A stretch of 64,000 nt of DNA from Neelides folsomi (taxonomy: Eukaryota; Arthropoda; Collembola; Neelipleona; Neelidae). The stretch lies in contig JAQGBZ010000244.1 in NCBI GenBank assembly GCA_034687125.1, positions 32,706 to 96,705 on the forward strand, in the 5' to 3' direction. Below, piece by piece: positions 1,685 to 54,400 of this stretch. Below the pieces are notes generated by a model. That model did no database searches and was not told the DNA's origin. It worked only from the letters and a program-made list of their open reading frames with translations. Each line of letters starts with the position of its first letter. Position 1 is the stretch's first letter. A program made the position numbers and the translations under genes.

Positions 1685-1800
1685 TGGCAAAGATCTTCCC
1701 TACCCTAATTGTAGGCGGAGAGGGCATTTGGTCGGGGTTGTGGTGAGGGGGCCATGGTGTCATCACGTGGACATTGGGTCCATCCTCATCATCCCCATGG
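1685..1800 (+). promoter_or_regulatory. GC-rich upstream island next to a TATA promoter
   Basis: A locally GC-rich block in AT-rich surroundings, ending just before a TATA box. Its left half is G-rich (GGCGGAGAGGGC, GGTCGGGG, GTGAGGGGGCC). Its right half is C-rich (CATCCTCATCATCCCC). It contains CACGTG-like (TCACGTGG) and GTCATCAC words that could bind transcription factors. That it is a proximal promoter or enhancer is inferred from position. Its G-then-C layout matches the islands of the giant intron. Confidence 0.45.
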
Positions 1801-1807
1801 TAAATAA

Positions 1808-1850
1808 TATATAAAAGGAGGGAGGTTGGCGTGTGGAAGCTCAAAAGCAG
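1808..1850 (+). promoter_or_regulatory. TATA-box core promoter of the 111-aa gene
   Basis: TATATAAAAG lies at 1808-1817. About 30 bases downstream, TCAAAAG at 1841-1847 fits an initiator, which puts the transcription start near 1842. The first in-frame ATG of the spliced reading frame is at 2012. TATA boxes this clear usually mark strongly regulated or tissue-restricted arthropod genes. Confidence 0.6.
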
Positions 1851-2011
1851 CTCGTCTCCCTCGCCCTACAAACGCCTCTCTCTTCCTCCTCTCCGACATC
1901 GCAAAAGACGACCGACCCTGTTGCCTGGACTAAGGGGCCAACACGCTGCTGCAGCTTCCACCCAGGAGATCTCCAATACCCACAAGGACAGAAGAAGAAG
2001 CTTTTAATTTT

Positions 2012-9140: not shown

Positions 9141-9286
9141 TTATGATTTTTTTATTTTGACAACAGATCGTGCACATACGACTCTCTTGGTCAGGGTTTA
9201 CAATCTGGGAACTAAAAGAAGCACATATGATCGACATTTTTTAACACCAAACTTTGTTCAAAAACATTATTGATAATTTCCCATCC

Positions 9287-9625: not shown

Positions 9626-10385
9626 AGGAATAATTATTTGGATTATATCAAAAGATATGTGTATAATGATTACAAAATAAAAGTAAACTTATCTCATTCA
9701 CTTCTCCAAAAGAGTTGAGTTTAAATGTAAAAAGTTTGCCTTTGCAACCCTTAAGTACCATTTTTATATTTTTCTCCATAATGTTATTTTTTCAATACTT
9801 GTTTTTGTCATTGAATAACTCAAATACAAAACAAAGATGGTACGGTATGGTATGTAATGTAACATATTAAATTTAGAGATAATAATAATTTGTATATTTT
9901 ACATTTTTTTGTTTTTTCACTCCATGTTGAAGGTTGTAAATTCACCATATACCAAGTGAATGGATCTCAATTGAATTCACCAATAACATAGTTCCTTCAT
10001 AATTATGACATTATATTTATATAATTTGACGTATATGCATTATATAACTACACTATTGCACAATAATTCATTAATTAGATAAGATCTTAACTATTACCCA
10101 ACAAATCATTCGAGGAAACAAGAAACATTAAAATAAGTAATATTTTAAAATTTATTACTGCTTTTGCTTCTTAAAGAATAATGCTTATGGTTAAAGATTT
10201 GCTATTTAAAAAAGATTACATCATATTTAATAATAAATTATTAAAAACCTGTTTAAAATTTAAAATCCATATTCGCATATCTCTTAAAAAACATCAGAAT
10301 TAGGTGAAAGATGACTATATAAATATTATATCTTGTGGCCTTTAAAGTTTGGTCGCCGAAGGATTGAACTTGTGAAGATAAATTG
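9626..10385. other. intergenic DNA; likely 3' UTR of the minus-strand giant gene
   Basis: AT-rich. On the minus strand AATAAA occurs at 10156-10151, about 230 bases beyond the stop of the pseudouridine enzyme gene, and is a candidate poly(A) signal. Nothing else recognised. Confidence 0.4.
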
Positions 10386-12461: not shown

Positions 12462-15400
12462 CTGAACAAATACCCCATTTACTATTTATACTACCAGTAT
12501 AATATATAATATCTTACAGCCACAATAACTAAATAAACAGAATACAAACTAATAAAATATAATTAATGATGTATATTATATACAGGTATGTACTATATCT
12601 AGGATATATATCTTCTGTTAGACTAAATAATGCGAATAAAACATTTTATATGTATACTTTTCATTATTTATTAATATAAATAAAAACAGCACATTACGAG
12701 AAAGAAAGAGAAATAGAGCATAAATATCATTTGCATATAAAGATAAGAGAGAACCAATAAAATAGTTTTTTCATCTATCACGCATGGAAAATTGCGTAAA
12801 GGAATTTCATATTATTCATAATGATTGAAAACTTTCTTCATTTGTGTCCACGCCTTTTCTCATTACCTATGTATAGATAAGTCATTAGGGAAGTTTATAA
12901 CTGTGAGGGGAATGTTTGAATTCGATAAGGAAGGAAATTCTGTTTAATTTCCTCATTCCTAATGAGGACTTTATGTTAATTTTCCATTACTTTCCATATT
13001 TTCTAGTCCAAATATGAAAAGAAGCCTTTTCAATTCCTTTCTCCTTTCAAAAACTTTTTCTCTCAAGTTTGGAAAAATATTCAAGAACTGATTTCAACAT
13101 TTATAAAGTTTGGGGCTTTTTTTCATAAATCCATATTGGCATGTTTCTATTCATAAAATTCATAAATATCCACTTAGGCATTTGCTATGTAAAATAATTC
13201 GAATGGATTGAACAATAAATTAATTTGTTTGTAAATACTCATGAAATGACGTAAATTGAATTGATAAATATTTTCATGAATTATGGATGAGAACTACTTA
13301 CTGCTTACCTATACATATCTGACATGCATATCTAGATAATATACTACATATCATTTCGTACATACATACCTAGGATATATGAATGCATTCATACTTCATA
13401 TACGCTGATACAAATACCTATTTACAAAACATAACTCAATATTTATTTTTATTCATTATTTAATCTACCTATTATATTCGTAATGTTGTCAAATTAGTGG
13501 AAATAATATAACAATAAATTTAATTTATAATTTCATATTTTATCCATTTCCCTAATACTTATATTTGTATTTCTTACTCTTGTTCTATGGACAATTAATG
13601 GGTTTTGTTCAAGCAATAAAAAGTAAAGATAAGTTTATATCTTAATGCAGGTAATAGAGTTATAAGTGTGTGGGATATATAATTTAACTAGGAAGTTTAG
13701 TGTTTTGTGGATGAGCGTGTGAAGGCACGTGTAGAATAATTCTCCCATAAGTATTTGTATTTTGAAATTGAAGCGTCGCGGGTACGTGCAGGGTATAAGA
13801 AGTACACCAAATCCCGGAATTTCCCCTCCAAATTCCCGGAGAATAAAAGGGAGAGAGGAAATCCATTGAACTCTTGAATGACTCAACTGCTTGGAGATCT
13901 CAAGTTGAAGTTATGCAGAAGCTAAGAATATCCCCCGGCCGCCCTGCCAATTCCCGTTAGACTCCAAGGTAACGTCCAAATTACCAGGCGGCTCCAAACA
14001 GAGGAATTTCACAATTAAATAACTATTATTTTTTATTAACTCCCCGTATTTAAATACAATGAAAATACCCACAAAACACTCCAGACCTAATCTTACTGCA
14101 TGGTTAAACTACTCAAATGCTAATTCAGCCCATTCATACAAAAACTAACTATTTAATTAAATGTTAATTTAAACATTATTATTTCAATGTTTTTGTAACG
14201 AATTAATGTTTTTATAACGAAATTGCAATTAAAATATATAATGAGCATATTTTAAATGGCGGTAAATTTGAAAATTGACCAATAAATACATACAATCTGT
14301 ATTTATCCTTTCATTCTTATATTCGCTTCATTTAAAATACAAACAAGTATACCTATTGTTATACTATTATTTTATACAAAGTACAGATAGTAGACTTATT
14401 TGTATGTACTAATACCTATATTAATGTAATGTACCATACAAAGATAAGCTTACCATACCTATAAATATTATACATATTGAGTTTACCAAAAATCCTTTCT
14501 TTCATCTTACTTCTTGCATAAATTTTTTCTTAGAAAGTCACGGTTGGGTAATTTTAAAGATCAGATGATCATTCGACCCTTTTCTCATTTTATTAAGAAC
14601 CTCTAGGGGAAAAAATTCAAATTTTTTCCTCCGAATTCAAAACCCCTAAAAACATAAAACGATCTTTGATCAAAATGCAACACATTTAAAGTTTTATATT
14701 ATAACATTATTTGGTGAATTTGAATAATGCTTATATTTGAGAATTTTAGAAAATGGGAAATATTGCAAAACAAGTTAAATCCACTTAACGGTTATATAAT
14801 TAAAGAGACAAATGAGGCGGGAAAGTGTGAAATAATACATGGCTCCAGTTGAATGGATCCATTTAATAAAATGATTAATAGTTCCTTTCTCCATACGTCC
14901 CTTGTAGTACAAATCGGGGAGTGAATATTCATTGCGTGTAGCCATGAGGTTGCCCAGAGATTTCCCCAATGTGTTGGGAAAATTCATCAATCTTTCGCCC
15001 TTTGAATTCGCACTGCCATAAATTACATTGGCGGGCGACCCGTTGCATGGCCGGGATTTTTAAATTCCGAGTTTAAAAGTTTCCTAAGATGGGAAATAAC
15101 AGCAGCGGACAATTATTAATTAAAGGGTATTAGGTATGGGAGGTTTATTGGGTGGGGTGGAGATGGGAGTTGATGGATAGCGCATGGTGTGGTCGGTGAA
15201 GGCCTCCATCGGCTTCCACTTCCACCGCTCCATTCCCAAACCAACCACGGGAAGAAAAACGGAGTTGACGACGCTCCGGCACAAATACAAAGAAATCCGA
15301 GAAGACTTTGAACAAGTGTCAACCCATATATCCCTTTTCCCCATTTTCGTTTACAATTATTCTAAACTTTCCCGCGGATTCCAAACCCTTAATAAAACAC

Positions 15401-18400
15401 AATCAGAACATATAATACATACAAAGATGCTAATTTAGCATTGTTAATAAAGTTAACAAGGGTATACAATTATATAAGTATTTATAAGTGCTGAATTGAT
15501 AATATTATTAGAGTTTTTGAAAACAGAATAAAGTGTAATAATAAAATTATAGTTAGTGAAAGAGTAAAAGTTTAATGTTTTGAGAATGTTCTGCTTTATT
15601 GTAAAAACGCTGGAATAAACCAAGTGGAATAAACCGAGATGAAATCGGAGTGGACAAGTTCTCCGGTTTCCCTACATTGTAATTAATCAAGATTTCAAGA
15701 TCCAACAAAAAGTTTATTTGTTAACAAATTGGAGAAGTTTATTTGTATTTTAAGGACTTTGAAAGATTTGGAGGATTTGAGGATTTTAAGAGAAAAAAGA
15801 TAAAAAATGCATCTTGTTTGAAATTCTTATAAAGTCGAAAAAGCTGTGACTTTTCAAGATTTTCAAATGATGACTTGAAAAAGACGAAACTTCCCACTCT
15901 GCACGTACATTCCGAATAAAGTACTTTTAGTAGTGAAAATCAATAAATAAAGTGAATCCAGAAGTTGCAGGTTGAAAAAATAAAAGTTTGAAAAGGTAAG
16001 AACAATTTTCATTTCATTTCAATAAATAAATACTTAACTTTTTATAAATCATTTTAAAGTAATCTTGACCAGAAATTTGTAAAAAATATTTACAAAATTC
16101 CTATAAATATACATATGAATAATAGCAAATACATTTAGTCTGCTGTAAGTACATAGCATTAGTACAAGCTGTTTAAAAAATCAAAGTTGATTTAAAATAT
16201 AAATATGTAAATGTAAAAATTAATCTGAAATTAATCCAAATTGAATTGTACGAACGGAATAATTTATGGGTTTTTGTATGAGATTTAAATTAAATGCTTT
16301 CCGGTCCGTGAATGTTTAGCGATAAGGAGAGATTTACATGGAAGAAAAGGAAGAAAGAAAGCACCGTTGTTTTTTCCCTCTTGGGATGAGAATGGGAGTT
16401 TTTCATTACTGACAGTCTGACGGGCCAAGGGAGAAGGAGGAAATTTGAAAGTTGGCCCTGTAGAAGGAAATTTCCTTGTTTTTGGAGAGAAATGGGCGGA
16501 GGTTCCCTGAAGGACTCCTCAACCTGTCCGTCCCTCACACAACTTTCAAAATACCCGTCACTCCCACAATCGCATAAACAACTCCCGGACAAAATGGACT
16601 TCGATTTACAGGTCAAAATCCTTATCCACCCAATTTAGCACTCAATAAATAATCGGATAATTTGACAACCAAATGGCCACCGTCAGTTCATATTCAATTA
16701 TTCCCACCATTTATTTTTCTGAATTGATTTTAAATTCATCGTTTAAACCAATTTCGTGCCGAAAATCTCAATTCATTAAATTATGAAGAATTTAACTGTA
16801 AATGTAATTCAACAATCTAAAGTAATCTAATAATTTTGTAGAATTTAAACAAATTGTATAATGTTAGTAGATATTTAAAGATTTAAGTTTTATTATGTTA
16901 AATGTTTAAGTAATATTCAATTAAAACAAGTTTCAATTTCATTATTCTAAATTAATTGAAAAGCTCTGAATAGAAGGTGAAAGGATTCTTAAGAACGTCA
17001 ATTGCCATTAAAATAATTAAAATTACATAAATGGTTCAATGGAGATTATATGTTCGTTAATTAAAATTTAATTCAATTAATCTTCTCGGCCATTCCTCAA
17101 TTGATACAATTTGATTGAATTCAACGCCATTCCTCTATTGGGAGATTTCTCCCAATTGACGTAAGAATTCTCGATCGACTCCCAACGGCTTTTATTCCAT
17201 TTAGGAATCCAGAGCTGTGTGCATAGAGAAATTATGCACGTTTATGAGGAGTTAATGTTATTAAATGGAGAATTTTAGAACGAGTCACTTCAACTTCTCT
17301 CCACCACAATATTATAATTTATATGATTGATTTATATAAAAGCATTAGTAATACATACATAAGTTGTATATCCATTTTACAATTTCATTTCTAGTTACAA
17401 CACGATGATAAGTATGGAAGTTTCAAGTATGTTATTTGTGAGTTGGTTGTGTATTAAACCTTTCACAGCCCCTTTGATATCTTTGTAAGACCTTTGCCCT
17501 TCTCAAAATTTGTATTTATGGGATTTGACGCATCTTTCCCACTCAATATTTCAAAAGATTTCCAAATATTCAAATTCGGCATACGCATCCAAATACTCAT
17601 AATATATTCAAGGATATGAAACGTATGTATAAGTCACATATTTAATGTTAGAAAGGAAATTGGAAAAAGAAGGTGTAGCAAATAGGAATATGAAAAAAGT
17701 GGAGTTATATTTAAAAAGTTTATTTTATGGTCATGGAAGAGATGTTGTTTTATAGGTCGTCTTATTTCACCCACCCTCCATTCATTTTAAATATAAAGGG
17801 AGCGTAAATCCCGGGTTTGGCCATTTGAGGGGCTTGAGGAAGAGAAAGTGACAGAGTTCATTGGGGCCGTCTTGTAACTTACATTTTTATTCCCCCATTA
17901 TGTGGAGGCAAAGAGGGGCAGAGATTCCTTTTTAATGGCAAAAGGCCCTCGTATGTCACCCCATTCACGAACTACTTTTGATCCTGTGAATTGTGGAGGT
18001 GAAACGAGGACACATTGAACACAATACTCCACTATACAATATTCATATATATCGTCCCATTATACATACATTCTTTTACCTTCCATTTTATTTCTCCTTC
18101 CAACGACCCATGTATGTATAAATATAATTTGTTACCTACTTTAACCCTACACATATAAATAAAGAGACTATATCCTGCCATAAAACGTCTTTTATAACTA
18201 CAAGAGACCTGACGCTGATTCTATCCGTAAGGAGCTCTATTCTGCTAAAATGCGCTGTTTCTCGATACAAGTGGTTATATTCGGACAAAGGTGCTATATC
18301 TTGCCTTGTTATATCTTGAGGCTAAGATAAGCTATAACCTGCCAGACGTTATATCCTGCGATGGTATAAGTTTATAAGGTGAAAGGTTTTTCTTCTTGAA

Positions 18401-21400
18401 CAGCGGAATGTAAAGAATGTAGAAAGAAGTTTAGAAAGTAGTGGAACTTTTGGTGGCTGGAGACGCGTCGATGTGAGACAACCTTTTCACTTGTAACCTT
18501 CACTCACTCAGGGAAAAGAGGAAAAAATTCGTTCAATCCCCCCACAACACATAAAATGGATTTGGGGTAATGGGATGGTTAGACAAATCTATTCTTAAAG
18601 GATTTCTCTCCTCTTCCTCCTCGTAAACAAGGAAAGGAGAATTTTCTATTAAACCTCCATTTTCACTCTGGTGGAAAATAAAAGGAATTTTTAAGAGCGT
18701 GAAAACTCCTTTTACGACTCCAAATGGGCCAATTAAATTAAAAAACTTTTATTCCCTGTGGCGCCAAAGTTCAAACAATATAAAATAAATAAAAGCGACT
18801 TGCACAGGATTTAGTTTCACAATTTCAAACTTTATCATTTGAAAATTAAATTCGAGAAATAAAATTACTAAAAAAATAAAATGGAACGTTTTTTAAATAC
18901 AAAGTGGAACAAAGGTATAAGGAGGGAACTTTTAAATCATGCTCCAAGAGCTGGGCGGAATTTCCTATTGGATCTTCCTTATAAATATAAAAGATGAAAA
19001 GGGCGTTTCGGAGCTTAACGGCGTTTTTGAATTCCTCCTCATCTTCCGCCTTGTAAATGAAATTTGAATAGAGACGTTGGAGGTATTTGATAAAAATTCG
19101 AACATCCCTACCATACATTTTCCCTGGGAAAGTTTATAGGATTGACAGAGGGAGGGAAAGTTGAAAGATTCAAGAAGGTCGTTGGATCAATTCTTTCAAA
19201 GGTCTTTTTTTTATTAAAAGCGTTTTGAAGGGACGGATGTTCACCAGAGGCGTCCGTCCTGCTAATATCAATTCCCCCATCTAATAATCTGAGTGGACAA
19301 CCATATGCAATCCAATTTCATTTTTTATTATTTTATTTGCTTTCAAAAACCCATCAAATCTATAATTTTCATCGTCTTTTTTCTTATACTTATTTCCAAT
19401 ATTTTTAGGACTAAAATTTGCTAAGAATATTATTAGTCTCTAATACACTTAATATGCTCTAGAATATGTAATACAACGAAAATATAGCATAAAACATAGT
19501 ACATATTCTTAAGTACATTATTTTCAGGTTTACATATGCTATTATAAATACTACTACAGAGTTAAAGTATAAACTATGTAAAAATAAGTATGATAGATGA
19601 TAAGATGATAGAAATATGTGAATTATATGTAGAGACATAAAGTGTCAAATGCCATCCTAAATGTCTGTATGCGAAGATAATAAACGGTGAGAAAAAGACA
19701 ATGAGAAATGAAGAGAACGTTATATAAAGAAAAATGACAAATATTCGGGCCAACTCTGGGCGAAAAATCCTTCGCGCACTCCCATACCCTTCACTTATTC
19801 ACACATAAATGTCTTACAATTTTGATTATCCCGATTGATTTTCCCGCATGTGGACAAAATCCCCTCATATATTAAAATATAATTCCACTACCAATATGTT
19901 CCTAACAAAGTCCCACCAACACTGTTAAGTCGTCCAAGGACTCTTATAAGAAATCAAACAGCATTAGGTAACGGAAAAAGTAATATTTTACCTCAAATGT
20001 GTCCATAGACTTTCCCATCTTAATTCTTTATCTATTGATGTTATTTATCACACCTTCATTTCCAAAATTGAATTTTCCCAGTCTTTATATAATCTACTAG
20101 AAAATAGACTATATAGCGTACCATATGCAATAATGTTATGTTAATATGGCTATTGACTACCATATATAAACTAAAATACTACTAAATATATGGTACACTT
20201 ATAATATACAATTGAAGTACAATGATATTAAAGGTGCAGATATTTGGTTAAATAAAGTCACGCAGCATTTAGGAATGGACTTGGCATATTTCTAAATACT
20301 TCATGTATGGTTAAATTGTTATCTATGCAAGTAATGTGAAAGCGGTAATTTTTGAAATATTGAAACGTCTCTGACTTATCTCATTTTGTGTTTATAACTC
20401 TTCTAAAGAATTTAATAGTTAATTATATTTCTGAAGGATCCCTTGACTTGAGCCGCTTATCTCATCCCCCCATTTTCTCCCATTGCGGAAGGGAAAAGTG
20501 AGTGAAAGTAGGGAAAATCGTGTTTGATTGATGGAATTTATTTATGAATCCCTTGCGTGTTTCTCAGCCCACATTCCTCACACACAACACACGTCCCACA
20601 CACTCAATCCCAAACTACACTCACAGGGACTCGGAAAAGACATTCTTTATCTCTTGTACATTATTATCAAACTTATGTTAACACAAGTGACTATATCGAG
20701 CCCGTATGACCAAGAGACTATAGTCTGCGCAAATAGCTTTTTGAAGAGACTACATGTTGCCCTATCTTCGATCTTGACATCATCATTAGAATTTCTATTC
20801 CTTTTTTCTCCAATCCATATTATATTTACAAATGAGAGATAAGAGGGAAATAAAAGGCAAACGAATCGAATAAGCTGGAGGTGGGGAAATAATTCGTATA
20901 TTTATTTATTAAGTGCCGGAAAATGAAAATAAAAATAATTCCCAGACATCTTTTTATGCCCTTTTTATGACGCAGTTTCATCGTTGGGTTAATTGAGAAA
21001 ATTATGACTCATATTCAATTAATGAGATGGTGAAAGAGACAAACAACGTATTTGCATTCCACCAAGGCCGTAAAATGAAATTCCTTCACGTTTCACCGCC
21101 GTCATTTCTCATCCCCTATTTATGATTATCTTTTATATGCCCATCTGGCTCTATAAATTACATCAATATTAACGTTGTGCACAACTTCAGATTCAGGAGA
21201 TAAAGAGAATAAAATGCTTTTAATCTTTAATGGACAAAGGTGAATCTGACTTTGAAAGTTTATTCATCTCTGGATGATACAATTTAGTATTTCGCTGGTC
21301 TAAATATAGCGATTTTATATATACAACAAACAGATATATCCGGCGATTTTATGTGCACCAACTATAAACTACGATTTAATATTTACAACTAAATACGAGT

Positions 21401-24400: not shown

Positions 24401-27400
24401 TAGCCTATAACCACCCTATTGATTCACATTGGTAAATCGTTAAGACCCCTAGCAGCTTTCCATTGACTTAATGAATTCTTAAATCCTTTCGAACCTTTAA
24501 ACTCCAAATACTGTTATTACAAATATATTGGAATATAAACTTTAAGCACTATTATTTTTTTAAAATACTCTATAGTTTACTATCTATTAAAGTCGATTCA
24601 CAAAATCTTTACCCGTGAGTTTGAACAAACCGCCAAGTTATTTCCAGAAATACGAATTTAGTTAATTGTTACTATTGATTGTAGTATAACATATTTAATT
24701 AGATTTAAAGCATATTTATATTTAATTAGATTTAAAGCACATTTATATTTATTTCATTTGTAAAACAAATAAGGATCATATCATTTCTTTATTATAATAT
24801 GTTAATTTACCTGTTTACTTTTTATCTGTTAGATATAAAAAATAAATAACTTCAATATTAAAGTAAATTATAGAATTGTCAATTCGAGTTAAGAAATTCT
24901 TCTGTAATTTTGAGACCGTTCCAATTTAAAAAAACATGTTTTTTAAACCCAAATAAGGGATTTAATTTTAAAAATTATAATTTTTTTCACGTGTTTTCAA
25001 AAAATAAAAAAAATGTCAAGCTATGATAAATATTTAAAAAACGAGAAATATTGTATTTTGTTTTTATATTGAAAAGGCTTAAGCTTCCTTTGCTTGTATG
25101 GGTTCAAAATTGTGAATCCGATCATTGAGAAAGAAGGATGGGCATTATCCATACAAAAAGTTGATCTTTAGTGTCCTACGCCATTTGGCGTATCTCCCCA
25201 GTTGTTTCATAATGCTCGAGAGGGTCTTTCTCTATAACCAATTCCAATAACGTCTCAAGTTAGTAAAGAATATATAGAGAGAAGTTCCGGGGAAAATTTA
25301 TCAATTTTCTCCAGGATCACGTTCTCCCGGCAGAGGAAATTGGAGATGATACGAGAAAGGAAATTCCGAATAAATGAAATTTGTTCCATCATGCAAAAAT
25401 CAAAAGTCCACATATAAAATCATAAAATTTGCACGTTCGCTCTAATTTTTATAATTTTAAACCCAACCTTCCCCAACCTCATGAATAACTCAAATTAATC
25501 CAAATTCGTGAATGGATGTCTTATGAAGGTTGGACGAACTTTTAAGATTTTAAATTTCCAGGCGGTTGCCAATTTTACAAGATGGGATAATGAAAAAATG
25601 AGGTTTTTATGTTAATATAATGATTTTTATACGAGGTTTGGAAAAAAGGATTATGTCGTTGTAAGTCGAGATGTGGGAAATGGTGGAGCAGCATATTGGT
25701 GAACATGAGTTCCCAACAACCCAGAAAATTCGAAAAGTTCAAATGGGTGAGAAATGGGAATTTTATACGGAACTTTCAGCTTCATACAAAACAAAACTCA
25801 TCGATTTTCTCCATCATTCCTTAAAACCCTCAACGGCCGACTTCTAAACCCCCGCCAAACAACACAACAACAACTCAATTACAATAATATATTAACATCA
25901 TTAAACTCCTTCAGAACAAATTTTATATTATACCAAAATTGAAAAAAAACTCACATAATACATAATATACACTTAATGTTAGATAATATATCAAATTACT
26001 ATAAGATCATATTTCAAATATAAGATTTTTAATATTTTGTTATAAAAAATAAAAAGGAACTTTTGTATCAAAATAGCTTGAGTTTTTGAATATTAAGGGT
26101 TAAATGAATTTTCTTCAATTTATCGCTCCTTTTCATTTTGAGAAGACCAAATTTTGCATTTTTTTTTGAAGGATTTTAGAAGTTGACAAATGAGATTTTG
26201 TATATAAAATGAAACGTCGGCTGATGATATGAGGGATTGGGAGAAAGGAAATAACTCCTCGACCAGTTGGGATGAAAGGACCAGAAAATTCGGAATCTTT
26301 CTTCCGGGAAGAACCCGGAAAAAAGTTGGATAAAGTACAGAGAATTGTGGGGAGATTTGTATTACACTTGAGAGCATTTCCCACCACTCCCCTCACTCGG
26401 AAATTCCTCCAAGAGAACATAATACTATATCCTGCGCACTTTAACTCATACTTACTCCTAAATGCCATTTATAACTATATTAAATACAAATGTATATATC
26501 GAGTAAACATTCTCAAATAATAGAATACACATATCAAATACACTAAATTCCATCTAAAGAAAATACTGATATATTTATTTACTGTAACTTATACAGTTAA
26601 TATAAACAGAGAGATTTAGCAAATATTTAAAAAAAATATATTCTTATATCTCTAGTACATCAGTAGGTTTATAAAAATAAATATATATTTATATGGCACA
26701 TAAATATGGATTTAAGTATTAAATATTATATTGAACAATAGTTTTAATGTTGTTAAATTTCTTGGATATAAGATTACATCATTTTCTATCAAGGGAGGCG
26801 AAAGTGGTTTTGTTCCTAAAAGTGAGTAATAATAACACGATTAGTTGGTCTGGAGGAGAACCGAACATTTGGACTTATTTGGTCATAAATACTGTTCAAT
26901 CCGCAGCATTTAGCCCTCCGTTGAGCAAGGCCGGGAGGATGGGATTAAATAACACAAAGGGAGATAGACGTCAACTTATACTTTCTCTCCTATAATGACA
27001 ATGACCATAAGGTTCCCTTTACTTCCAATGAGCCAGGGATCTTTTTACACAAGGTGATCCAATTTCACGTCCCTTTAATCTTTTCCTTCTTTACTTATAC
27101 AATTTATCCCTCTTGTGTATACGGACATTTAAACCTATCGCTTTCTCTTCTCTGCTTTCATATAATCTCACAATGTTTGTACATTGCACATTACATTGTT
27201 CTGATATCTCCTGATATGAATTTGGTTGTGTATAAAGAATAATGATGAATATAAGCATATGGTCGTATCTTTTTATTATAGATTTTAGATTATAGATTAC
27301 ATTTTCCCTTTGTTCAATGGATCCATTATATGCATTTACAAGTGAAAATATATATCCTTTGAAGATTTTGAAAATGTGTTGTAGTATTATTTAACTAATA

Positions 27401-42400: not shown

Positions 42401-45400
42401 CACCCACCCGGAATATTAATTCCGCTCCCTTGCAAATCTCTCTTCATTACTGCAAGGCGACATCCAAATACAATCATAGGAAATTATATAGAAAACTCTC
42501 CTTTTTCATTCATACACTTACCCATATAACAAATATATCTAGTATATTTCTAAAGGTCCTTTTAGCAACTTTAACCAGATACCTTACATATTTATATGCA
42601 CTATACATATTTATATATTCTGTAAGGATTTTCCGTACTCTTCAGCTTTCCTTGGAGTGCTCTTATTCTCCTTCTTATACCTTTCTTTACATATATCCTT
42701 CCTTATATTCTTAAATTTAGCCCGAGATTCCTCGGCGTTTGAAGAAGTGGCTGAGCAAAGAAGCGACTCATTTTATTCACAATTTCCTAACAAGATTATC
42801 CCTAAAACTGGAGTGAGTAATGAATAATAAAATATACTTTCACTATTTGACGCTCCGTTGAAGAATAACTTAAAACCCATCAAAAGGTCGTCTACCATTA
42901 GAGAGAAAAAATTCCAAGGCCCAAGAGCTAAGTTTACTAAAATTCATGTCTTAAAGCTTGATGTAAAATTATAAAATTCAAGACGCTCATATTAACATAT
43001 TTACCCATTCTTATATTCTTATAGACATATTTAAGTTAGTTCATCTATTCTTTAAAATAAACTATGAAGTTCCCAGTGAACATTCTGTACATATAAGATA
43101 AAGTCAAAAATGAATACATTATAAAATATTCATCCAACTCTCAGGAAACTTTTAACATCAAAGTCTCGGAAGCGGTCGGAAGTTTTAATGTTTACCTAAA
43201 ATGCATATTAAGTATGGTAGCAGTATGTAAGTGTTGAAATATATTGAAAAATTGAAATACCAGAAGTCAAAAGTCAGAAGCCTTAAAAAGGCCAAAGGGT
43301 TAAACTCAGATCCATTAAAATGCCATTTTATATTTAAACAATTTCCCGTATTTGAAAACATTAAAATTTCAAATATTCATAGCATAGTCAAAACATTTTT
43401 TCCAAATTTAAAAATTCAAAGAGCTGAAAAAGTATTTTAAATGATTTCAGTGTCTCCAACTTCTGACAGCATTTTGAGCTACGGCGGCGGAGATTCCGAC
43501 GGCTCCACAATCCCACCCATTCCCTTCAAGCTCCCTGAAACGTGTTGCACATTCACACGGCGGAATGTCTCAGCTCTCCCGGACCTCATCGAGATCGATC
43601 CCGGACCTTCCCGGAAGCCAACAGAGCCCCCGAAAAAACCCGCCCTCTTCCCTCTCCAAACTGCCCCCCATCATCTCCAACAATATCCTAACAATGCCAT
43701 CAACCATCCCGGGCCCCGCGTTCCTCCCATCCCTCCCCTCATTGGGAATCCTGAAACGAACGTGATCAATCTCCAGCACACCCCCCGGAGGAACAAGTTC
43801 GGGAAAGAAAAGCAATTCCGCCCCTCCCAGACAGAAACCTATTCCCAGCGGGTAATTCAAGTGACCACGGAGGCGTCCTCCTCCACCTACTCCGTCTGCG
43901 AGCTTCCTTCCCAATACCTCCACCATCCCCCGGGAGAAAACGGGGCCTCGCTGCTCATCTCCATCCACGTGACCCAACACCGGGAGGGGTGCGAGCGGAA
44001 AATGGTCGCTTGGATTGACCACGTGACCGAAGTGTTCTTCGTCATCGGCTTCTGCATCATTGTCTTCTCCAAGGCTTGTTTCCTCGCCATTCTCCGATAC
44101 GAAATAAAGGAAATGATCCAAAAGATTCGGCTGCTCAACGGCGAAGATCAGGGCAGAACGGCGGCCATGAACGAACTCATCGGTCTCACAGCACTTTACA
44201 ATTCAGAGGGCGGGGACGAGGAAGCGGGGAATTCAAACGTAGACGGGGATCCCAATGGAGCTAAAACCGGCGACCCTCCACTCCCGCCCCAAACGAAGCT
44301 GAGCATTGTGAGTGCCGGGGGCGGGGTGAGCGTGGTGGGGGGAAATGTCTATGCGAACCATGTGGGGAATAACAAGGCAAAGACGAGAGTTGAGATTGAC
44401 GACGATGACGATTCGAGCTCGGCTCTTTTAAGGCGACCGAGTAGGAAAAAGAAAAACGAGCCGAAGAATGGAAATAATAATTCGACTCCGCCGCCAGGGC
44501 CGAATGTCCCGCCAATTTCTTCTAATTCTCCAACCAACATTTAACATCATCTTTCCTCAATTTCCTCTTTTAGCATTAAAGACTCGGACACTGAGGTTCT
44601 CTTGTGAACTTCCCGCCAATCCAAGCAATCGTATAAAACTAAACAAGCAATTATGTTCAAGTTGTATAGTGAAGGTTCAAAAGTGCGAGCAAGACAAAAA
44701 AGTGGTAATAAAAAGACATTTAAAATTTAATGTGTGGAAAAGGAAATATCTTTAAATGTTAACAAGACAATCGTAAAATAGAATTAGTGTTAGTTAAAAT
44801 CCAAAGTGGGGTTTTTGTGTACCTTTTCCCCTAAATAGGCTGATAAAGCTTTCAAGCCCTGATAGGATTTAAACCCTGCGATATTGAAACCTTGCGATAT
44901 TTAAACTCAACGATAATCAGTGCCGTGTTTAATTACGATTAACAGAGTAATTAAGTTATTAAATCTGTTGGTGTACGAAAAAAAGTGTTAATGGAATAAG
45001 TTTGACCGTCCATCTGAACGAAAAGTTCTTTAAACGAAGAAAGGTACCTTTAAATATATAAAATTCCTACGGCGCAAATTTTAAATTATTTTGTCTCTTC
45101 AATCATTGAAAAGTTGAGTGATTGAACTTCAATGCGAAAGAGCTTCAGTTCCATTCCTCTGTTTTGATAACATTACGTAATTTAAGCTGATTTGACACGA
45201 GTTTTAATGTACCTTTAGAGCATGAGAAATGTGTTGATTTAAATTACAACCCTACTAGTACTACAAGATAGAACTGTGATGAATTGTTAGATTTGGGATT
45301 TGTGTGATAAGCCCCCATAAGGGTTTACACGATAAAAGTCGTAATTGATGAAAAGTAAAGGTCGATTTGTATAAAATCATATATCCATTATTTGAATAAT

Positions 45401-48400
45401 TCCCTATAGCTTTCCTTCACTCACTTCTGGTCGACAATGTGAGATAAAATTTAATTGGAATATGATAAGAGAAATCAATAATCTAATAGTGGAATTAAAT
45501 ATTATTACACACATATGCAATGTGTTTAGTATATGCAATGCAAAGTGCAATCTTTGAAATAAAGCTAGAAATCATGATTTAAAGAAACATTTAAGAGTCA
45601 TTAACAGGCGCTAATTATAAAATTGAGTTTGAGTTTAATTTTAATCATATCGTGAAAGTGAGTTGGTTTTGAGTATTTTGATTAATAAAGTCGGATATTT
45701 AGTGCGATGGAGGCGCTAGTGTGAAGGACTTTTTGGTGGGAATTAATTGAATTTTGAAATATTCCTGGTTATTCAACCATATTATGATTTCATTAAAAGG
45801 AGAAGGAGGAAATTGAGAATGACGCAAAAGAGGGAAAGTTATTAAGGTGGAAGCGGAATTTCCTCTTAGGGATTTCTCAAGTGGGACATATGAAACTTTG
45901 ATCGAAAATGAACCCTTGGCCTTTTTAAGCCCCTCAGAAAAATCTTTACGATCTTCCCATAAAGTTCCCCATCATCATCCGCTCTCGGCATATCATTCCC
46001 CCCATAAGAGGAAGAATAAAAGGGAAATGTCCAATTCCCTCCCACTCATTCCCCCTTTCATATTCCTTATGATCTCCCAGGTCGAATGGGAGATCAATTG
46101 AGAGATTTCACATTATTTATCAACTCAAATTCCCCAATCTGATCAACTTCCATCTCTTCCATTTCCAGGATGATTTCACTTAATGGCCTTTAGCCCTGAA
46201 ATATGCAGCTGAACAAAAAAATGCGCCAAAGAGTGAATGAATGATCGTATCAGATTTGGATGCATTTTTATTTAAAAGGTTTGATAATTTCAAATATGCG
46301 CGCGTAAATCAGTCGATCACTGCCTCTCCTGTACATAATATAAAATGGTCAATACTATTTTTTAGATTGACTTATAAATAATAACATTATAATACATTTA
46401 TTTACTAATGTAATAATCCTTATAATTATCTTATTTAAATACGCACGTCTAGTTAACTGAATATTTCAAATAATTAATAATTAAATATGAGAAAATTGTT
46501 AGTCTCAAATGGCAATCATGAATCTCTAAATGGAGCGAAAAAGAATTTTCTAAATAAAAAAGTACAGATATTTTCAATGACAAAACCCAATTAAATATTT
46601 CATGAATAAATATTAGTTATAAATACTTGTAGATAATAAATAAATCAATATTAAATAGCTTACAGTTAGTAACTATAATATACGGTTAAATAGCTAAAAG
46701 AGGAAATTGAGGAAATGATACAACATGAGGAATCGAGTTTAAATAGTTAAAATCCTATTATTTATAAAACCCACCATTTAAAGGTTTATTTAAACAGCGA
46801 ATTGGCGGGTTTTTAAATACCATTTATTTAGTGGATTGTAAATATAGAGAATATGAAACACATCGTTCTTCTGAAAATATACAAATCTCTTTCCAATCAA
46901 CAGCCAATGCTTCTTCATTCAACCAAACTTCCAAAAAGTATGTCTTTTTTAAAATCAAAATCGATTATTTGTCTACTAAATATTACGTGTATTATCAACA
47001 ACCATATGTGAATGCAGCGGCAATCTTCTCCCGTTGTTAATAAAACTAATATTTACATACATTAAAAACATTTAGGTAAATCTTCAAAAAACCGGGAGTT
47101 TTTAAAGTACCTAAAAGTAATAGAATCTTATTTAGACCCACTAAACCCACGTTAATGTTGTAATTTAACTATCTGTAACATTTACAGTGTAAATAGCAAT
47201 TACCTATAAGTAAAATAAATAAAACACTTTTTTAACTAAATTAATGAATTTCAGTCTAAACAATCCCAGTTATAATATTATCAAGACTTGAATCATCTCG
47301 AATACCTTCATTTAGCTAATAAATCCCCGCCAGAATTTAAAATAAAAATATTGTAAAAATAAGCTAAATAATGAATATACGAAAATCTCTCAATTGTTGT
47401 TGTAATTTAAGCGTTGGTGGTTAATTTTAAATGTTATTGTGTCGTGAGTGTCAATTACATTAAATAGTTATTTATACGTTAACTATCTGTATTAATTAAA
47501 TTATAGTATACACATATGTCTATGTAATATTAAGCATAATGTTATAAATGTTATCGTTAGAGTTATCCCCGTGATGTGAACTTATTGTAAAATGAGAGTC
47601 TATACACTGCGTCTATCCTGATATCTAATAAGAGTTTACGTTTTTAAGTTATAAGGCTATAACGATATTTAAAGTTATAATGTATGTATATGACCATAAA
47701 AGAACATTTCATTATGTCCTTATAATTACATAAATTACAAAATATCCCGCGGTTCTATTGTGGACGTATTATTCAGTTTCAATGCGTAGGGATGAGTTTT
47801 AATTATATATGGGATTTGTCAGCGAGGGAGAATTTAAAGTTGAATGAATACGTGATGGAGATATAAAAGATATTTATAGGAAGCGTTTAACCTTTAAATT
47901 CTATCTATAGTTCTCTCCAATATATAAATGTATATTTAAATGTCTTGTATGTTTAATAAATGTTGATCTTTTAATTAACTTTCACTTCCTGAGAATTTCA
48001 TCACATGGACTATATTTTACATTTACAAACTATTTCTCATATAATTTACATCCATACTTCATATATGTATTAACGCAATTAAGAAACGTAAATTTTGCGC
48101 TAGGATTATATTATTAGCTTCTTAGTTGTGGGTCTTGTGGGCTTAAATTACCCAGTAAAACCTGCGATGCGTATGATTTTATTGGAATTTAACTTAAGTT
48201 GTAAATTTAATCCTTAGCCGTATTAAGGATTATTCTTAGAATATTTCTTTAAATTGGTTAGTTTGGTTAGTTTTCCTAGACGGCTTTTGTTTCAAATCAT
48301 CCAATGTGTTTTGTTCTATATGTAGAGATTATTCAAGAGATTAGAATCAGAATTGTATCGTTTCGTATGGTGGCATATTTTCCGTTTTAAAGGCCGTTTA

Positions 48401-51400
48401 TATAAAGATAATTCGTTTCTATGAAGGGCAAACGGAGGGGAATTCTCTCGAGAGCAGTTGGAGAAAGCTACTTCCAACTCACATTCCCACTAAACCCCAC
48501 ATTCATGTGGAATTGCATGGGGAGTCTTCCATTATTGAGACTTTACCTTTTTCGAATCCTCTAGTAGATAAAATTGGATAATATTCCATTAAACCCGACA
48601 AACGAGAGATGTGTATTTTCTCAATGAATTCCAACTTAATGAGCAGTTGACATGTGACACAGGGAAAATTTAATTAGGAAAATTGGATTATTCATTTTAT
48701 ATAATATGGAAACACAATTTCGAAGTATTTTTTTCCATTTTGAGAAAAAGGTTTTTCAAAACTATGAAGCAAAGTTTGAATTTATCAGATCTTTGGTTTA
48801 AATATATTAAGGTAATTAAGAGTTTTGTTAAGTTAATTATTTTACAATTAATAAAAATTTTTAATTTATGGAGATTGAAACAAAATTGGATGAAATTGAA
48901 ATTTGGAGCCATTTGATTTCCAATGACAACCGGATATTAAAGTTTATATTGTTCTTTGAGAAAATCAAAGTTTTGCACACAATCAATATTATTCTAAGAT
49001 TGAGTTGAAAAGGATATTGATGAAGGCCGAATGAAATGAATTCGAATTGGTGAGTTTTAGCGTATTTTGGGTATCTCTTTTAAACTCATCCTCCTCATGA
49101 ATAATGAAAGCGAGGGAAAATGAGGGAATTTCCTTTCGGAACTCGCCAAGTTGGATTTAAGGAGAATTGAGAAGCCGTTGGAGAAGCTAAATGAAACTCC
49201 TTGGATAATTCAGTTACCAACCGAAAACTCAAACTTTTCAGCTTCCAATTTCACAACTGAAAAATTAATTAAGCACTTACGACTCCCCCTGGAACACGGG
49301 GAAAACTCGGAAAGAAATAAAAGTTGAAAAATCTCAACGACCTCCGCTTTCAATCACATAAACGAACAAGTTCTCAATCACTTCCTCCATTTCCTCCTCC
49401 ACTCCAAATTCCCGTCAAAAGTTAACTTCAAAATTAAAAATTAATTCCCGACAAATGCACAAACAACTTTTACCATATTGTTAGAAATCTATTAAATTGA
49501 ATATCATTAAAATTTAATTAACAATCTCTGGCCTATGAGTTATGACCCATAAAGTCATATCTTATGACCTTATGTATATAAGTTATCAAATTATTAAAAT
49601 TCAGCACCTGGGTGAGATGGACTTTATCAACGCGGATATTAGGATCCTTATAACTAGGCGCGAAATTCAAAAAATCCAATTTCCACATCCATTCCTCCAT
49701 TTGTAATCCAGTCTTCTGGAGGTGAAAAGAGGGTGTGGAAATTGAGGAAACGTGTGTAGTAAATAAAAAAGTTCTTTTCCCTCTCTTTCTCCATTTGAGC
49801 CTCTAAGAGAAGAGGAGATGAAAGGAGAAAAGTTTACAAAGAAACTTCCAACATTAATAAAATGAAGAGTCGTTCGTATCATTTGGGTTCATTGGGAACG
49901 GAATTGGTGACGTCCATTGGAAAGCCTTTGAAAAAGAGATTAAAAGAACTCAACTGTCTTTTCCCATCTTACACAAAAAACTCATTTTCAAAAGGGTTAA
50001 TGAGAAACAATATCCTACTTTTTTTATCTAAATTAAAGTAGAGAAAAAAAAATGAAAAGCGAACGAAATTCCAATCCCAAATGAAGTACTTAAATTACTC
50101 GTAAATAAAATTGTAAACAAATTTCAGAAAACCCATTTTTGAAACCCATTGGGAAAATTTGAGGTTACATTGAAAGCTAAAATTAAAAGTTGATATCTAT
50201 TTTACATAGTTTTAGTTGTAAGAATGGGAATTGTAGTAAAAGGATGAGTTTCTGCGTAGGGCGTGGTGAAGGGCAATCTGTCCACATCTCTTATATAATA
50301 TGAGGCTTAATATGCGGATGAAATAGGGGAAAGTTAAGTTGAAGTAATGTGGGCTGAGAGACATTTTGAACATTTCCTCACGTGGAGAGGGAACCGAATG
50401 GGGCGGAATCACGAAAAGGTCAATTCCATTCCCAATAATAACTACATATTTCATCTGCCCCTTTCCCCCAATCGCAAATTAAAGAAATTTACAACCCAAT
50501 CACACAAAGTCAACTAATAAACCCAAATCTCATCTCATACTCACTAAATAAATATTATATAGACAAAATATCTATACTCATACATTTCTAAACTCTACAT
50601 GTATTTAATATATCCACTTTACTATTCTTTATATTCATATGGTCGCATAAAGTGTGAGCATATTTGTTCATATATGTAAGTGCATAGATCGATAAACATT
50701 GATATTACATCCTTAACGGTACAAATAAAAAATATTTTTATATTTACTCATATGCTTTAAATATAATATCGATATATTTAAAAAATAAAATATATGGTAA
50801 AGATATATCAATACTATATAAAGGCATACTAGTTCTCTACGCATACGTTCGATAATAATTAGAGATTGACGTATTTGCCAATCAAAGTTTACAACTTATT
50901 TTATTACACCTTGATTGTACGCGATAGGTTTTGGCGGCAATTGGGAATTCAACTTTGTTTACGCAGTATTTAGTGGGTTAGTGATAGTTTTAATTATTTT
51001 AGTGCCTAAAAGAACCCACGTCGGAAATGATGATGGAAGACGCAGATTGAGTTTTGCCTTCCAGCAATCAACTCCAATTCCCTCAATGCGTAAGTAATAA
51101 TGGGGTAAAAAAAGAAGGTCCCATTAGTGTACATTTGGGAGAAAGTGGCTTGCGGGGTTTATGTGGGATTTTTATGGGCAATTACTCCTCGGCGGAGCTG
51201 GTGGAGAAAAACCGTACATTTTCTCCCACCCGCGGAGATTCCACTGAATTTGCCCGGAAAGACACTGCAGGCCTTCTGTTATGAGGATTTCCCCTTTCAA
51301 TCCTCAGTCCTACGCCAAAATTCACACATCCTTACTTTGGATCTTCATTGTATCTTCATCTCACATCTCAAACAATTCAATATATTACACAGAATGGGAA

Positions 51401-54400
51401 ATTCAAAAACAAGTTACATATAACAACCTATATCCTGCCTTCCTGTCCAAATACATAAAAATCCTATATACGAAACTTATTTTAAACACTATATCATGCC
51501 CAAGCATAGTAAATACAATGTCTTCAACATTGTGACCTTAATATCCATATTTCCACATGGCAGCTCTAAAAATATATGACTAAATCCTGGGATATATTGA
51601 ATACGATTGAAAGGATTCAAAACCAGGTCATTGTAGCGTGGAAATAAAATAATAGAGTAACTGTATAGAAACGATGCATTTAGAATGGAAATAAGAAGTG
51701 TGAACAAAGGTCGTGGAAAAAAGTGGTGGGATTCTCCGTTGTTTCAAATCTCTCTTCCACACTTTTCTCCATTTTTACAAATGAGAATTCCGGAAGTTTG
51801 AGAATCCTCTCTAGTGGGTTGGAAGTTTTGGGGATTGAGTTGGTGAGAAGGTGGGGAAGTTTTGAAGTTCTTGGTTATTACTTATTACGCCTCCTTGAAT
51901 ATGGATTAACTTCCTAACACCAGTTCATACACCAACCACCCCCATCAAGTGGAGATGGAAAACCACGGTCGATTTAATATAAAACCAACGACCATTTAAT
52001 GACACTTTGTCCAAACTTTCACCTCAACTTCCCTTTAATAGATCCATTTAATAGTGAAATAATAAATAAAAGTGATGTTAAATAAAGAAGAGAATTAAGT
52101 ATAAAATCAATTATAATAATAAATGGGAGATGAAATGTAGGTCAATTAAAACGTCATTTGCATTGCTCCATAAAGTATTATATTATAAAATAATACTTTA
52201 TAGCTACTTTCCATATATATCCAAAGATTATGTTCTATCCCATATAAAATTTATTCTAGTAACATTATATCTTGTAAATGTTCCTATATTATATATTTAT
52301 ATAGAGAGAAATCAAAGAAAGTCGGCTTGGGGCGAAAGGAATAATTAAGAAATCCGAATGGCGATGATAAAAGGAAATTAAAAATGTCAAAAATGAAGTT
52401 TCATTAAATCACCAATTTCCGTTTGTTATTTTTAGACATATAGAACAAGGAATTTAAAATTTCTTCAACATGAGTAACAATCGATGAAAATATGGAGTCA
52501 ATACATGAAAGGATATTCAACTCCCTTCAAATATTCTAAGTCTCAATAAGTTTAAAAAATACATATATAAAACATGAAACCATATGAAAATATTTTATAA
52601 TGCATACATATTATGCATACATACATACATATTATGCATACATACATACATATTATCCCTTAATGCACATATTACACTATGTAAGTATATGCATTTTATA
52701 TAAATACAATAAACGAATAAATACCATAGTATATATAGGTATTATACTAGGGCTTTTTAAGGAAGCCATATAAAACATAAAAGTATAAATAAAATAAAAA
52801 AAGCTGCATAAAAATTGAATTTTGTTATTTGAAGAAAATATTGTGAATAAGTGAAAAGCAAAGTGAAATAATGCTCGTTTCCTCACAATGATCTCTTCAG
52901 TGACAGAAAAGATGAGGTCGAGGGAAGTCCCGCCAACGACAACCTTTGAAATCCCCGGGAAAAGAAGGAAATTAAATTGAAATTCGAGGAAACGTTGGTT
53001 GAATTGAAAGATGTTGAAAGTATTGAAAGAGATGGGAAAGAGGTTTATAAATTATTCTCTCACCGGCCGCCCTGCCTTGAGTCTCAAAGTGGATGGGAAT
53101 TGAATGGGGATTTCAATCCCAGGAACGCCTTTACAACTTTCCTCTCCAATTCCCCGCTTTCTGCCCGCAATGGGAGATGACAACTGTCGACCAAACTCCT
53201 CTTCATTACACCTTTCCAATTGACGAACTTTGACGGCGATTCCGGCCCCGACCCTTGCATTGTTCTCAATAAGAGCAACATTAGTGGCCAATGAACCTCC
53301 GCCGCTCAATCGATTGATTTCTTGAAGGATAAACGGTGTTGTGTCTTTGCCACGAATATTCAACTTTTTCGTACGTTCTAGTGCTTCATGGACCAAAGCT
53401 TCTATTTCCGCTCCTGAAGCTTCTGCTTCCTGTTTCAATATTTAGTCAATTACAATTTATTAGTAATAGCTAAAATTTATTGATTTGGGATATATATTAT
53501 TGTAGTAGGTGTAATGATTTAATGCGGTATTTAATCGTGCAATTTACATTTTAAATAAAATTAAAAAATGCATTGGTACGTTGATTTTTCGAGTTTGGAG
53601 AATTTGCATTTTTGTAAATTGGAGAATTAATCAGAGTTTGGGAATGGATTTCATTAGGGGAGAAAATAATGGAAAGAGAAGGAACCTTTGGAATTGGGAC
53701 GGCAATGAGAATTCCTGAATTGAAACGGAATCGGTTGGCCGATTCAATCAACTCCGCCGCCTCGTGTTCGTTCCGAAGGACATAAGGAGCTTCGAATGAA
53801 CTCTCTGATGTGAAAAATGAAGGGAATTTGATTGGAACGCTCAAATCCCCTTCCTTAAGAACGCACACACAGACGCCTTCTGTCTCCTAAAAGATGGGAA
53901 AGAAAAAGATTTGTCATTTCCCTTCACAAAACTCTTTCAAATGAAGTCAATAACCTTCCCTAACCAAATTATCCTTCAGTCCTGACCTCAAAAAATTCAA
54001 CAAAAGTAATAAATTATTATTAAAACTAAAAGACCAAAAGACCGAAATTACTCAATAAAAATGTTCATTTTATAAAAGAAATAATAAATTATAGGATTAC
54101 AATATGTACCGATGTATTTAACTATCTGCATATGAAATATTTACAAATAGATAAAACAAAAAATAATTTTAAAATAACGCATTTAATTTTTACTCAAAAT
54201 TGCTTAATTAAAGTAAGAAGCTTGAAGCAAAATTATGATTGAAAATTCACTTTTATTCACATTTACACCATGCGTGTATCATATCACATAATGAATTAAT
54301 TTCATTCAAAGTTATATTTAGTAGTTGGTTAGATTGATTATTAAATTGATTATTAAAATTGAGAGTGCATTAGATCTGAAATTAAGAATTGGCTGTAAAT

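Follow-up and report, generated by a model that had tools for sequence, protein, structure and literature searches.

Our sequence analyses indicated that the GC-rich islands of the collembolan Neelides folsomi tend to share one polarity, G/T-rich on the left and C/A-rich on the right, which could record lasting, repeatedly repaired germline break sites, most likely meiotic breaks made by SPO11. This reading is drawn from base composition, and we give it a probability of about 45%. The polarity was first seen in one 64,000-nucleotide stretch (the window; positions 32,706 to 96,705 of contig JAQGBZ010000244.1) and is not confined to it, recurring in a large part of the genome sample.

GC content was the sole criterion for an island (at least 0.40 in 200 bp), and polarity was measured as (G+T)-(A+C) in the 200 bp left of the island centre minus that in the 200 bp right of it (L-R). 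The window contained 57 islands, about one per 1.1 kb. An earlier note on this DNA had described some three dozen islands between 13.6 and 52.1 kb, all turning from G/T-rich to C/A-rich; the left arm was indeed G/T-richer in 36 of the 40 islands of this interval, with a mean L-R of 0.212. None of 5,000 sets of random centres matched this mean, and among 1,041 circular shifts the unshifted position alone attained the observed polarity. The pattern survived the test that had been named as able to overturn it, a lack of sign change in mean skew at island centres or a skew equal to that of shuffled windows of the same composition. Seven islands singled out as clear cases all gave L>R when halved, although the right side was weak (-0.04) at 34.8-35.05 kb and showed no sign change at the best local switch at 45.6-46.1 kb (Table 1). 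The switch placed beside a TATA promoter at 1.81 kb was recovered from the two halves of 1.7-2.0 kb (L>R). The supposed near-absence of polarity from the GPCR and IR regions did not hold, because polarity at 0-8 and 56-64 kb was weaker, not absent: an island-free polarity statistic was 2.3 and 1.9 there, compared with 6.3-9.8 in five of the six intervening segments and 3.2 (standard error, 3.5) at 40-48 kb.

Table 1. Polar GC islands and gene features of the window (strand "." for islands; L-R, left-minus-right polarity)
Feature	Coordinates	Strand	Remarks
Polar GC island beside proposed promoter	1700..2000	.	switch ~1835
PfkB exon	12258-12485	-	profile match
Probable giant intron of pseudouridine glycosidase/kinase-like gene	12486..53051	-	contains the 13.6-52.1 kb interval
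Polar GC island	15025..15425	.	centre ~15225, L-R 0.50
Polar GC island	16274..16674	.	centre ~16474, L-R 0.35
Polar GC island (earlier note's case)	20335..20735	.	switch ~20565
Polar GC island (earlier note's case)	25557..25957	.	switch ~25770, L-R 0.44
Weaker polar island (earlier note's case)	34770..35170	.	switch ~34970, L-R 0.16
Polar GC island	35407..35807	.	centre ~35607, L-R 0.36
Polar GC island	37607..38007	.	centre ~37807, L-R 0.43
Tetraspanin gene	38510..44544	+	opposite strand, nested inside giant minus-strand intron
Polar GC island (earlier note's case)	40440..40840	.	switch ~40640, L-R 0.38
Polar GC island (earlier note's case)	42160..42560	.	switch ~42345, L-R 0.31
Weak island (earlier note's "clear" case)	45600..46100	.	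centre 45996, L-R 0.06
Polar GC island	49010..49410	.	centre ~49210, L-R 0.39
Polar GC island (earlier note's case)	50205..50605	.	switch ~50405, L-R 0.27
Polar GC island	51669..52069	.	centre ~51869, L-R 0.36
Indigoidine_A exons	60406-60684, 53052-53441	-	Pfam

We infer that the Indigoidine_A and PfkB exons belong to one gene; the top NCBIfam match of the PfkB exon was a pseudouridine kinase, at a score far under the model cut-off. In the nested gene, the Pfam tetraspanin match lay on the exon at 39251-39658; those at 38.5 and 43.4-44.5 kb were deduced from ORFs and gave no Pfam match. Island polarity was gone within the large last exon of this gene (-0.20 at 43918 and -0.08 at 44324). Searches of the window for RNA families at gathering cut-offs and for tRNAs returned none. 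A search for SL1 RNA also gave no match, its control being silent as well. Stop-free runs longer than those of shuffled sequence (p<0.05) were found in 12 of the 57 window islands against about 3 expected, so some islands may be exons. Positive polarity was nevertheless alike in islands with such an ORF (10/12) and without one (41/45); the corresponding fractions outside the window were 48/72 and 75/98.

Beyond the window, 198 kb of the genome was sampled as 21 pieces, each 2-10 kb long; two of them border the window. The mitochondrial gene order ND2-COX1-COX2 and the reading of TGA as W are suggestive of an arthropod or a related animal. The same G-to-C polarity was present in 116 of 161 sample islands, about 8 standard deviations past the circular-shift null. 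The island-free statistic was positive in 26 of 28 segments of window and sample together (one 2.2-kb piece omitted), and its t value reached 2.0 in 11 of the 20 sample segments. The other nine (L004, L006, L010, L012, L014, L017, L020, L021, and L022) had no clear polarity (t<1.5), and polarity was also weaker upstream in C244, as at both window ends.

The switch had been described as G/T to C/A, and it is real as a polarity but chiefly sets G against C, the T/A part being a quarter of the size. In the window, the antisymmetric part amounted to 0.050 (G/C) and 0.012 (T/A); the sample values were 0.019 and 0.004, the latter with an interval that spans zero. Mostly G/C exchange with little T/A is what would be expected if C>G mutation dominates. 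The skew was distributed across G-containing words rather than one motif, with G+T words more asymmetric than G+A words (TGT/ACA versus AGA/TCT). In the window (54 islands), GC skew was 0.06 up to 20 bp off the centre, already 0.21 at 20-40 bp, 0.34 at about 130 bp, and near zero by about 330 bp. The 168 islands of the sample had a GC skew of 0.03-0.07 within 60 bp, 0.15 at about 90 bp, and near zero by 270 bp, the width of this low-skew core being readable only as far as the imprecise placement of island centres allows. The reach was about 300 bp even where the neighbouring island was more than 1 kb off, and the zero crossing shifted with island spacing across 450-1000 bp. Arms with the next island at 250-450 bp (210 of 616 arms) had almost no polarity and are perhaps coding clusters. 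Raised central GC is built into the island definition; an independent measure was the correlation of GC height with polarity over window and sample (rho 0.23, p 3e-5, n=317).

It is doubtful, though conceivable, that the AT-rich valleys are the source, with divergent replication or transcription starting there and sending G/T-rich leading or coding strands into the islands on either side. The sign would be correct with the valley as the centre, and the C-to-G switches did sit in DNA of lower GC content than the G-to-C switches (0.307 versus 0.382 in the window; 0.318 versus 0.375 in the sample). However, the skew fell at island cores more steeply than it recovered between them (derivative skewness, -0.465 in the window, bootstrap -0.615 to -0.333; -0.291 in the sample, -0.402 to -0.184), and it is anchored on the island, dying out where an isolated island leaves a long valley. 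Transcription, moreover, contributed little: noncoding flanks of 33 long ORFs had sense skews of 0.023 (GC) and 0.001 (T/A). In the giant intron, GC skew was -0.004 and -0.017 and T/A skew was 0.025 and 0.048; the GC skew of one tetraspanin intron, -0.087, had the wrong sign for a transcription source. These small sense skews indicate that transcription imparts little asymmetry of the sign that the valley model needs.

The spacing of the islands had been put at about a kilobase; the spectral scale was about 650 bp. At 600-750 bp, GC content and GC skew kept a fixed phase relation, offset by a quarter wave. In the summed GC and G-C power of both the whole window and 13.6-52.1 kb, a line at 652-655 bp was rare against block shuffles (0/300 with blocks of 200, 400, or 700 bp; with 1000-bp blocks, 4/300 for the whole window and 1/300 for the shorter interval). 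The line at about 653 bp was missing at 43.4-64 kb (122-159 of 300 shuffles) and from 16 sample segments, and its phase-only coherence was ambiguous. Switch-point spacings had no extra order over shuffled spacings in three intervals (p 0.23, 0.44, and 0.55). Switch points were also close to those of block-shuffled sequence in count (83 versus 89-94), median spacing (687 versus 592-615), and coefficient of variation of spacing (0.47 versus about 0.51); switch counts alone are thus no evidence of density. The spacing is best described as a characteristic scale, and a strict 653-bp lattice is unproven.

Germline breakage could account for the sign as follows. Breaks would form at or near the island centre, and resection of the 5' ends would leave 3'-ended single strands, the plus strand on the left and the minus strand on the right. 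These strands, while exposed or during error-prone refilling, would have C, and to some extent A, replaced mainly by G, as reported in humans. The plus strand would then be depleted of C and enriched in G to the left of the break, with the reverse to the right, an effect declining with distance. Such mutation of the resected strands predicts G/T-rich left and C/A-rich right arms, the sign seen at the islands. Repair from the homologue would favour G and C through GC-biased gene conversion and raise GC content in the central 100-200 bp. The genome encodes a SPO11 gene (TP6A_N and TOP6A-Spo11_Toprim exons, C122); a search for SSXRD (PRDM9) gave no match, although the control likewise matched nowhere. 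Break and resection, which predict the observed sign, were missing from the options weighed in the earlier note. Several observations count against the break reading: pure C>T deamination would give more T/A skew than observed; the islands are very dense and, unlike the hotspots of yeast, Arabidopsis, and tomato, GC-rich; their skew has a much shorter reach than the human flanks and, in the window, is already marked at a distance where human hotspots are still symmetric; and polarity is not clear in nine of the 20 sample segments and near zero in closely spaced arms. An extension of the break reading, which we regard as improbable, is a self-organised array of permanent break sites in which GC-biased conversion makes GC-rich cores, the cores attract breaks, and interference spaces the sites at about 650 bp. 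Break, resection, and repair would then have given the GC content and skew of introns and intergenic sequence a quasi-periodic sawtooth course, legible in a single reference genome.

A less likely account than breakage, but one to be taken seriously, takes the islands for regulatory elements in accessible DNA, or for places where the sequence favours a nucleosome, and traces their skew to some other damage or repair process, or to selection, in open chromatin. Island size and spacing would suit regulatory elements, one switch adjoins the proposed promoter, and the weaker effect at both window ends and upstream in C244 would fit as well. The skew, however, extends 300 bp to either side, beyond one nucleosome, and has no single motif at its base, the excess asymmetry of G+T words aside. 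Divergent transcription or bidirectional replication starting from an element is expected to leave C/A-rich DNA on its left and G/T-rich DNA on its right, such that the coding strand is G/T-rich outward from a divergent promoter or enhancer. The islands have the opposite sign, as the earlier note had pointed out.

The same sign weighs on the idea that the islands are replication origins with central breaks or error-prone synthesis, which we consider very unlikely. Human constitutive origins do combine raised GC content, skews, and central breaks, with error-prone synthesis beside the centre (PMC9645720). Nevertheless, one origin per kilobase or so would be implausibly dense, and the G-rich elements on which an origin reading of the earlier note relied found no backing, as GG and GGG were less asymmetric in the window than composition alone predicts and the island arms held only one G3 quadruplex motif in the window (110 arms) and two in the sample (322 arms). 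Quadruplexes oriented to an initiation site were not a consistent feature: in the window, G2 motifs numbered 90 on one strand and 25 on the opposite one, whereas the sample had 103 and 108, which exceeded shuffles (46.5) and were balanced between strands. The near lack of G3 motifs and the low GG/GGG asymmetry also led us to reject G-quadruplexes as a cause of the skew.

Hardly anything speaks for the islands being decayed foldback copies or tandem units of about 650 bp, an idea that our data largely refute. Their composition is symmetric under reverse complement, as a foldback would be, and the spectral scale is near the unit length. All-against-all blastn of 240 islands nonetheless gave short matches only, overlapping excerpts aside, homology decayed past the reach of blastn being outside this comparison. 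Across 59 window islands, an island's arms were no more complementary to each other than to the right arms of other islands (12.00 versus 12.13), which speaks against the dispersed foldback family suggested earlier. Tandem Repeats Finder (TRF; longest period, 500) identified no tandem array, and lag identity at 640-670 bp (0.2814) was close to the mean (0.2792; standard deviation, 0.0028), leaving tandem units unsupported. The lack of detectable shared homology points to a process rather than an element.

If the break reading is true, a bare assembly would suffice, in a species that has no recombination map, to locate enduring germline break sites and to gauge how far resection extends. It would also suggest that local strand asymmetry here arises mainly from break repair rather than from transcription or replication. 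Even if the mechanism is wrong, the quarter-wave offset between GC content and skew at 600-750 bp still has to be explained, and any small genome would allow a test of it.

Among known systems, the islands resemble mouse meiotic hotspots, where Smagulova and colleagues reportedly observed in 2011, at sites mapped by DMC1 single-strand DNA, that nucleotide skew changes polarity at the hotspot centre. Origins show an upward jump, from C/A on the left to G/T on the right; the islands run the opposite way and have nearly no G3 motifs. A shared trait is a GC-rich centre with flanking skew from local mutagenesis, the human origins being accompanied by breaks and error-prone synthesis (Murat et al. 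2022, PMC9645720). No invertebrate precedent for the pattern appeared among the matches listed, as judged by titles and abstract openings. According to PMC6237102, budding yeast has one hotspot per about 3 kb, and the double-strand break hotspots of yeast, Arabidopsis, and tomato are AT-rich; the islands are denser and GC-rich. As in yeast and plants, sites not set by PRDM9 could persist and gather a compositional scar, and SPO11 is present here. A further parallel is with human PRDM9 hotspots (Hinch et al. 2023, PMC7615360), 25,440 autosomal hotspots defined by PRDM9 sites and DMC1 signal. Mutation asymmetry flips at their centres: the forward strand mutates at C and A, the reverse strand at G and T. 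Types with off-centre peaks include C>G and A>G, and the central ±100 bp is symmetric. The human asymmetry is one of mutations, with 2-kb flanks and resection of 1-2 kb, whereas that of the islands is one of standing base composition and reaches about 300 bp, with about one island per 1.1 kb; the flip at the centre and its sign are the same in both.

The earlier note had claimed that GC-rich islands between 13.6 and 52.1 kb switch from G/T-rich on the left to C/A-rich on the right, and our measurements bore this out. Islands were chosen on GC content alone (at least 0.40 in 200-bp windows for this interval), with skew playing no role in the choice, and base skew was then measured on either side; their number varies between analyses, which used different thresholds and minimum distances. 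The left-minus-right difference in (G+T)-(A+C) was positive in 36 of 40 islands, with a mean of 0.212 that was matched by none of 5000 random-centre sets and, among 1041 circular shifts, by the unshifted one only. Under the same settings, 4/6 islands to the left of the interval and 8/9 to its right leaned the same way, and the seven islands named beforehand, together with a promoter case at 1.7-2.0 kb, were all higher on the left, those at 34.8 and 45.6 kb weakly.

Island polarity extends well beyond the window, with variable strength. The window (32706-96705 of contig C244, 96705 bases; 31% GC) belongs to a genome of 75.1 Mb in 840 contigs, and since it is the stretch that drew attention, its larger effect carries selection bias and the sample figure is safer. 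This sample totalled 198 kb: 17 stretches (158 kb) from every 40th contig by length order (20 requested, three contigs too short), two from contig C1 and two directly upstream of the window. G-C polarity was positive in 116 of its 161 islands (mean 0.072), against a circular-shift null with a mean of 0.000, a standard deviation of 0.009 and a maximum of 0.024 in 1000. An island-free statistic, the antisymmetric cross-correlation of GC with G-C, exceeded zero in 26 of 28 segments from window and sample (L018, 2.2 kb, excluded). Its t value was at least 2.0 in 11 of 20 sample segments (e.g., L002, 8.2; L015, 6.4; L016, 4.6) and below 1.5 in nine (L004, L006, L010, L012, L014, L017, L020, L021, and L022; two negative).

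The switch is mainly one from G to C, as the antisymmetric part was larger for G/C (window, 0.050 [0.041-0.059]; sample, 0.019 [0.014-0.024]) than for T/A (0.012 [0.005-0.020] and 0.004 [-0.001 to 0.010]), leaving the proposed T-to-A component a minor share. On the core-ward strand, 60-200 bp out, window arms contained A 0.307, C 0.131, G 0.231, and T 0.331. Many G-containing words shared the asymmetry and no single motif carried it; the asymmetry of GG and GGG fell below the composition-based prediction, and G+T words were asymmetric to a greater degree than G+A words.

The cross-correlation of GC with G-C was nearly antisymmetric: its extremes flanked the GC peak at about 130 bp, and the window also showed a lobe of opposite sign around 450 bp. 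Window coherence reached 0.88 and 0.83 at periods of 600 and 750 bp (noise, about 0.2) with a quarter-wave phase of 94 degrees; at a noise level of about 0.14, 19 sample pieces gave 0.54 with phases of 89 and 95 degrees, and the two upstream pieces gave 0.39 and 0.62, close to their noise level of 0.41. Skew was low at the exact centre, peaked at 90-150 bp and vanished by about 270-330 bp, dropping more steeply at islands than it recovered between them in both window and sample. Where the next island lay 450-1000 bp off, the zero crossing shifted outward as the gap widened; arms with more than 1 kb to the next island still reached about 300-350 bp, and those with 250-450 bp had almost no polarity. 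Collectively, these features identify the GC core as the organising point. A regular 653-bp lattice seemed strong in the spectrum, yet it failed a spacing shuffle and was absent from the window's right end and the sample; 650 bp is therefore taken as a typical scale.

The 13.6-52.1 kb interval most likely represents a giant intron, belonging to what we infer to be a single gene on the minus strand; a tetraspanin gene is nested in the intron on the opposite strand. A stop-free test flagged 12 of 57 window islands, and some islands may be unrecognised exons. Transcription contributes little skew in this genome: noncoding DNA adjoining 33 long ORFs, with sense strands crudely assigned from those ORFs, had a sense-strand skew of only 0.023 (G vs C) and 0.001 (T vs A), in a direction other than a transcription model needs. 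GC skew was -0.004 and -0.017 in the giant intron and -0.087 in one tetraspanin intron.

Features located in the window and in sample segments (L numbers)
Feature	Position	Strand	Remark
Indigoidine_A-like exons	window 60.4-60.7 and 53.05-53.44 kb	-	
PfkB exon	window 12.26-12.49 kb	-	best NCBIfam match, pseudouridine kinase
Probable pseudouridine-5'-phosphate glycosidase/kinase gene	window 12258-60684	-	spans about 48 kb; intron about 40 kb
ABC-transporter exons	window 55.5-56.3 kb	-	between two exons of the glycosidase/kinase gene
Diverged direct copies	window 8856-9158 and 9467-9772		69% identity over 307 bp; overlap or adjoin an ORF without Pfam match
Near-palindrome, possible foldback element	L021 6178-6642		79% self-complementary
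Near-palindrome, possible foldback element	L012 6332-6869		68% self-complementary
Near-palindrome, possible foldback element	L023 3993-4120		91% self-complementary
Mitochondrial fragment	L019 (contig C742)		order ND2-COX1-COX2; TGA read as Trp

With regard to a repeat origin, island-versus-island alignment gave short matches only (about 85 bp at most, overlapping excerpts aside), arm complementarity in 59 window islands did not rise above control, and there was no sign of a tandem array at a period of about 650 bp. G3 quadruplex motifs were nearly absent. Two-tier, quadruplex-like GG-cluster (G2) motifs in window arms, 60-260 bp from the centre, showed a threefold excess (90 vs 30 in shuffles) and were strand-biased, the opposite strand having 25. 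Sample arms had 103 such motifs vs 46.5 in shuffles, and with 108 on the other strand there was no bias.

We tentatively favour, at a probability of about 0.45, long-lived germline break sites at the islands, probably formed in meiosis by SPO11, whose gene was found in the genome. The pattern, its sign, its anchoring on the core, its spread and the SPO11 gene are observed; the breaks and their meiotic nature, the resection, the mutation spectrum and the conversion bias are inferred. If the core breaks and the 5' ends are then resected, the plus strand would be left single on the left and the minus strand on the right, and mutation of these single strands predicts the observed sign and the weakly skewed centre. 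A spectrum dominated by C>G would exchange G for C with little effect on T/A, and GC-biased gene conversion could have added the GC core.

Mouse break centres show strand asymmetry with a polarity switch. The same is described for human break centres, with C and A mutated on the forward strand and G and T on the reverse (PMC7615360). A widespread, densely spaced and standing polarity in a small, probably arthropod-like genome appears to be new, and it can be read without functional data; the literature search returned no recognised report of this pattern among the matches listed, with most subscription journals outside its scope. Several points weigh against the break-site model. Island density exceeds that of known hotspot maps, with 57 islands in 64 kb compared with one hotspot per about 3 kb described for budding yeast (PMC6237102). 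The skew of mammals has a longer reach than that of the islands, and break sites in yeast and plants are AT-rich, whereas the putative break sites of N. folsomi are GC-rich.
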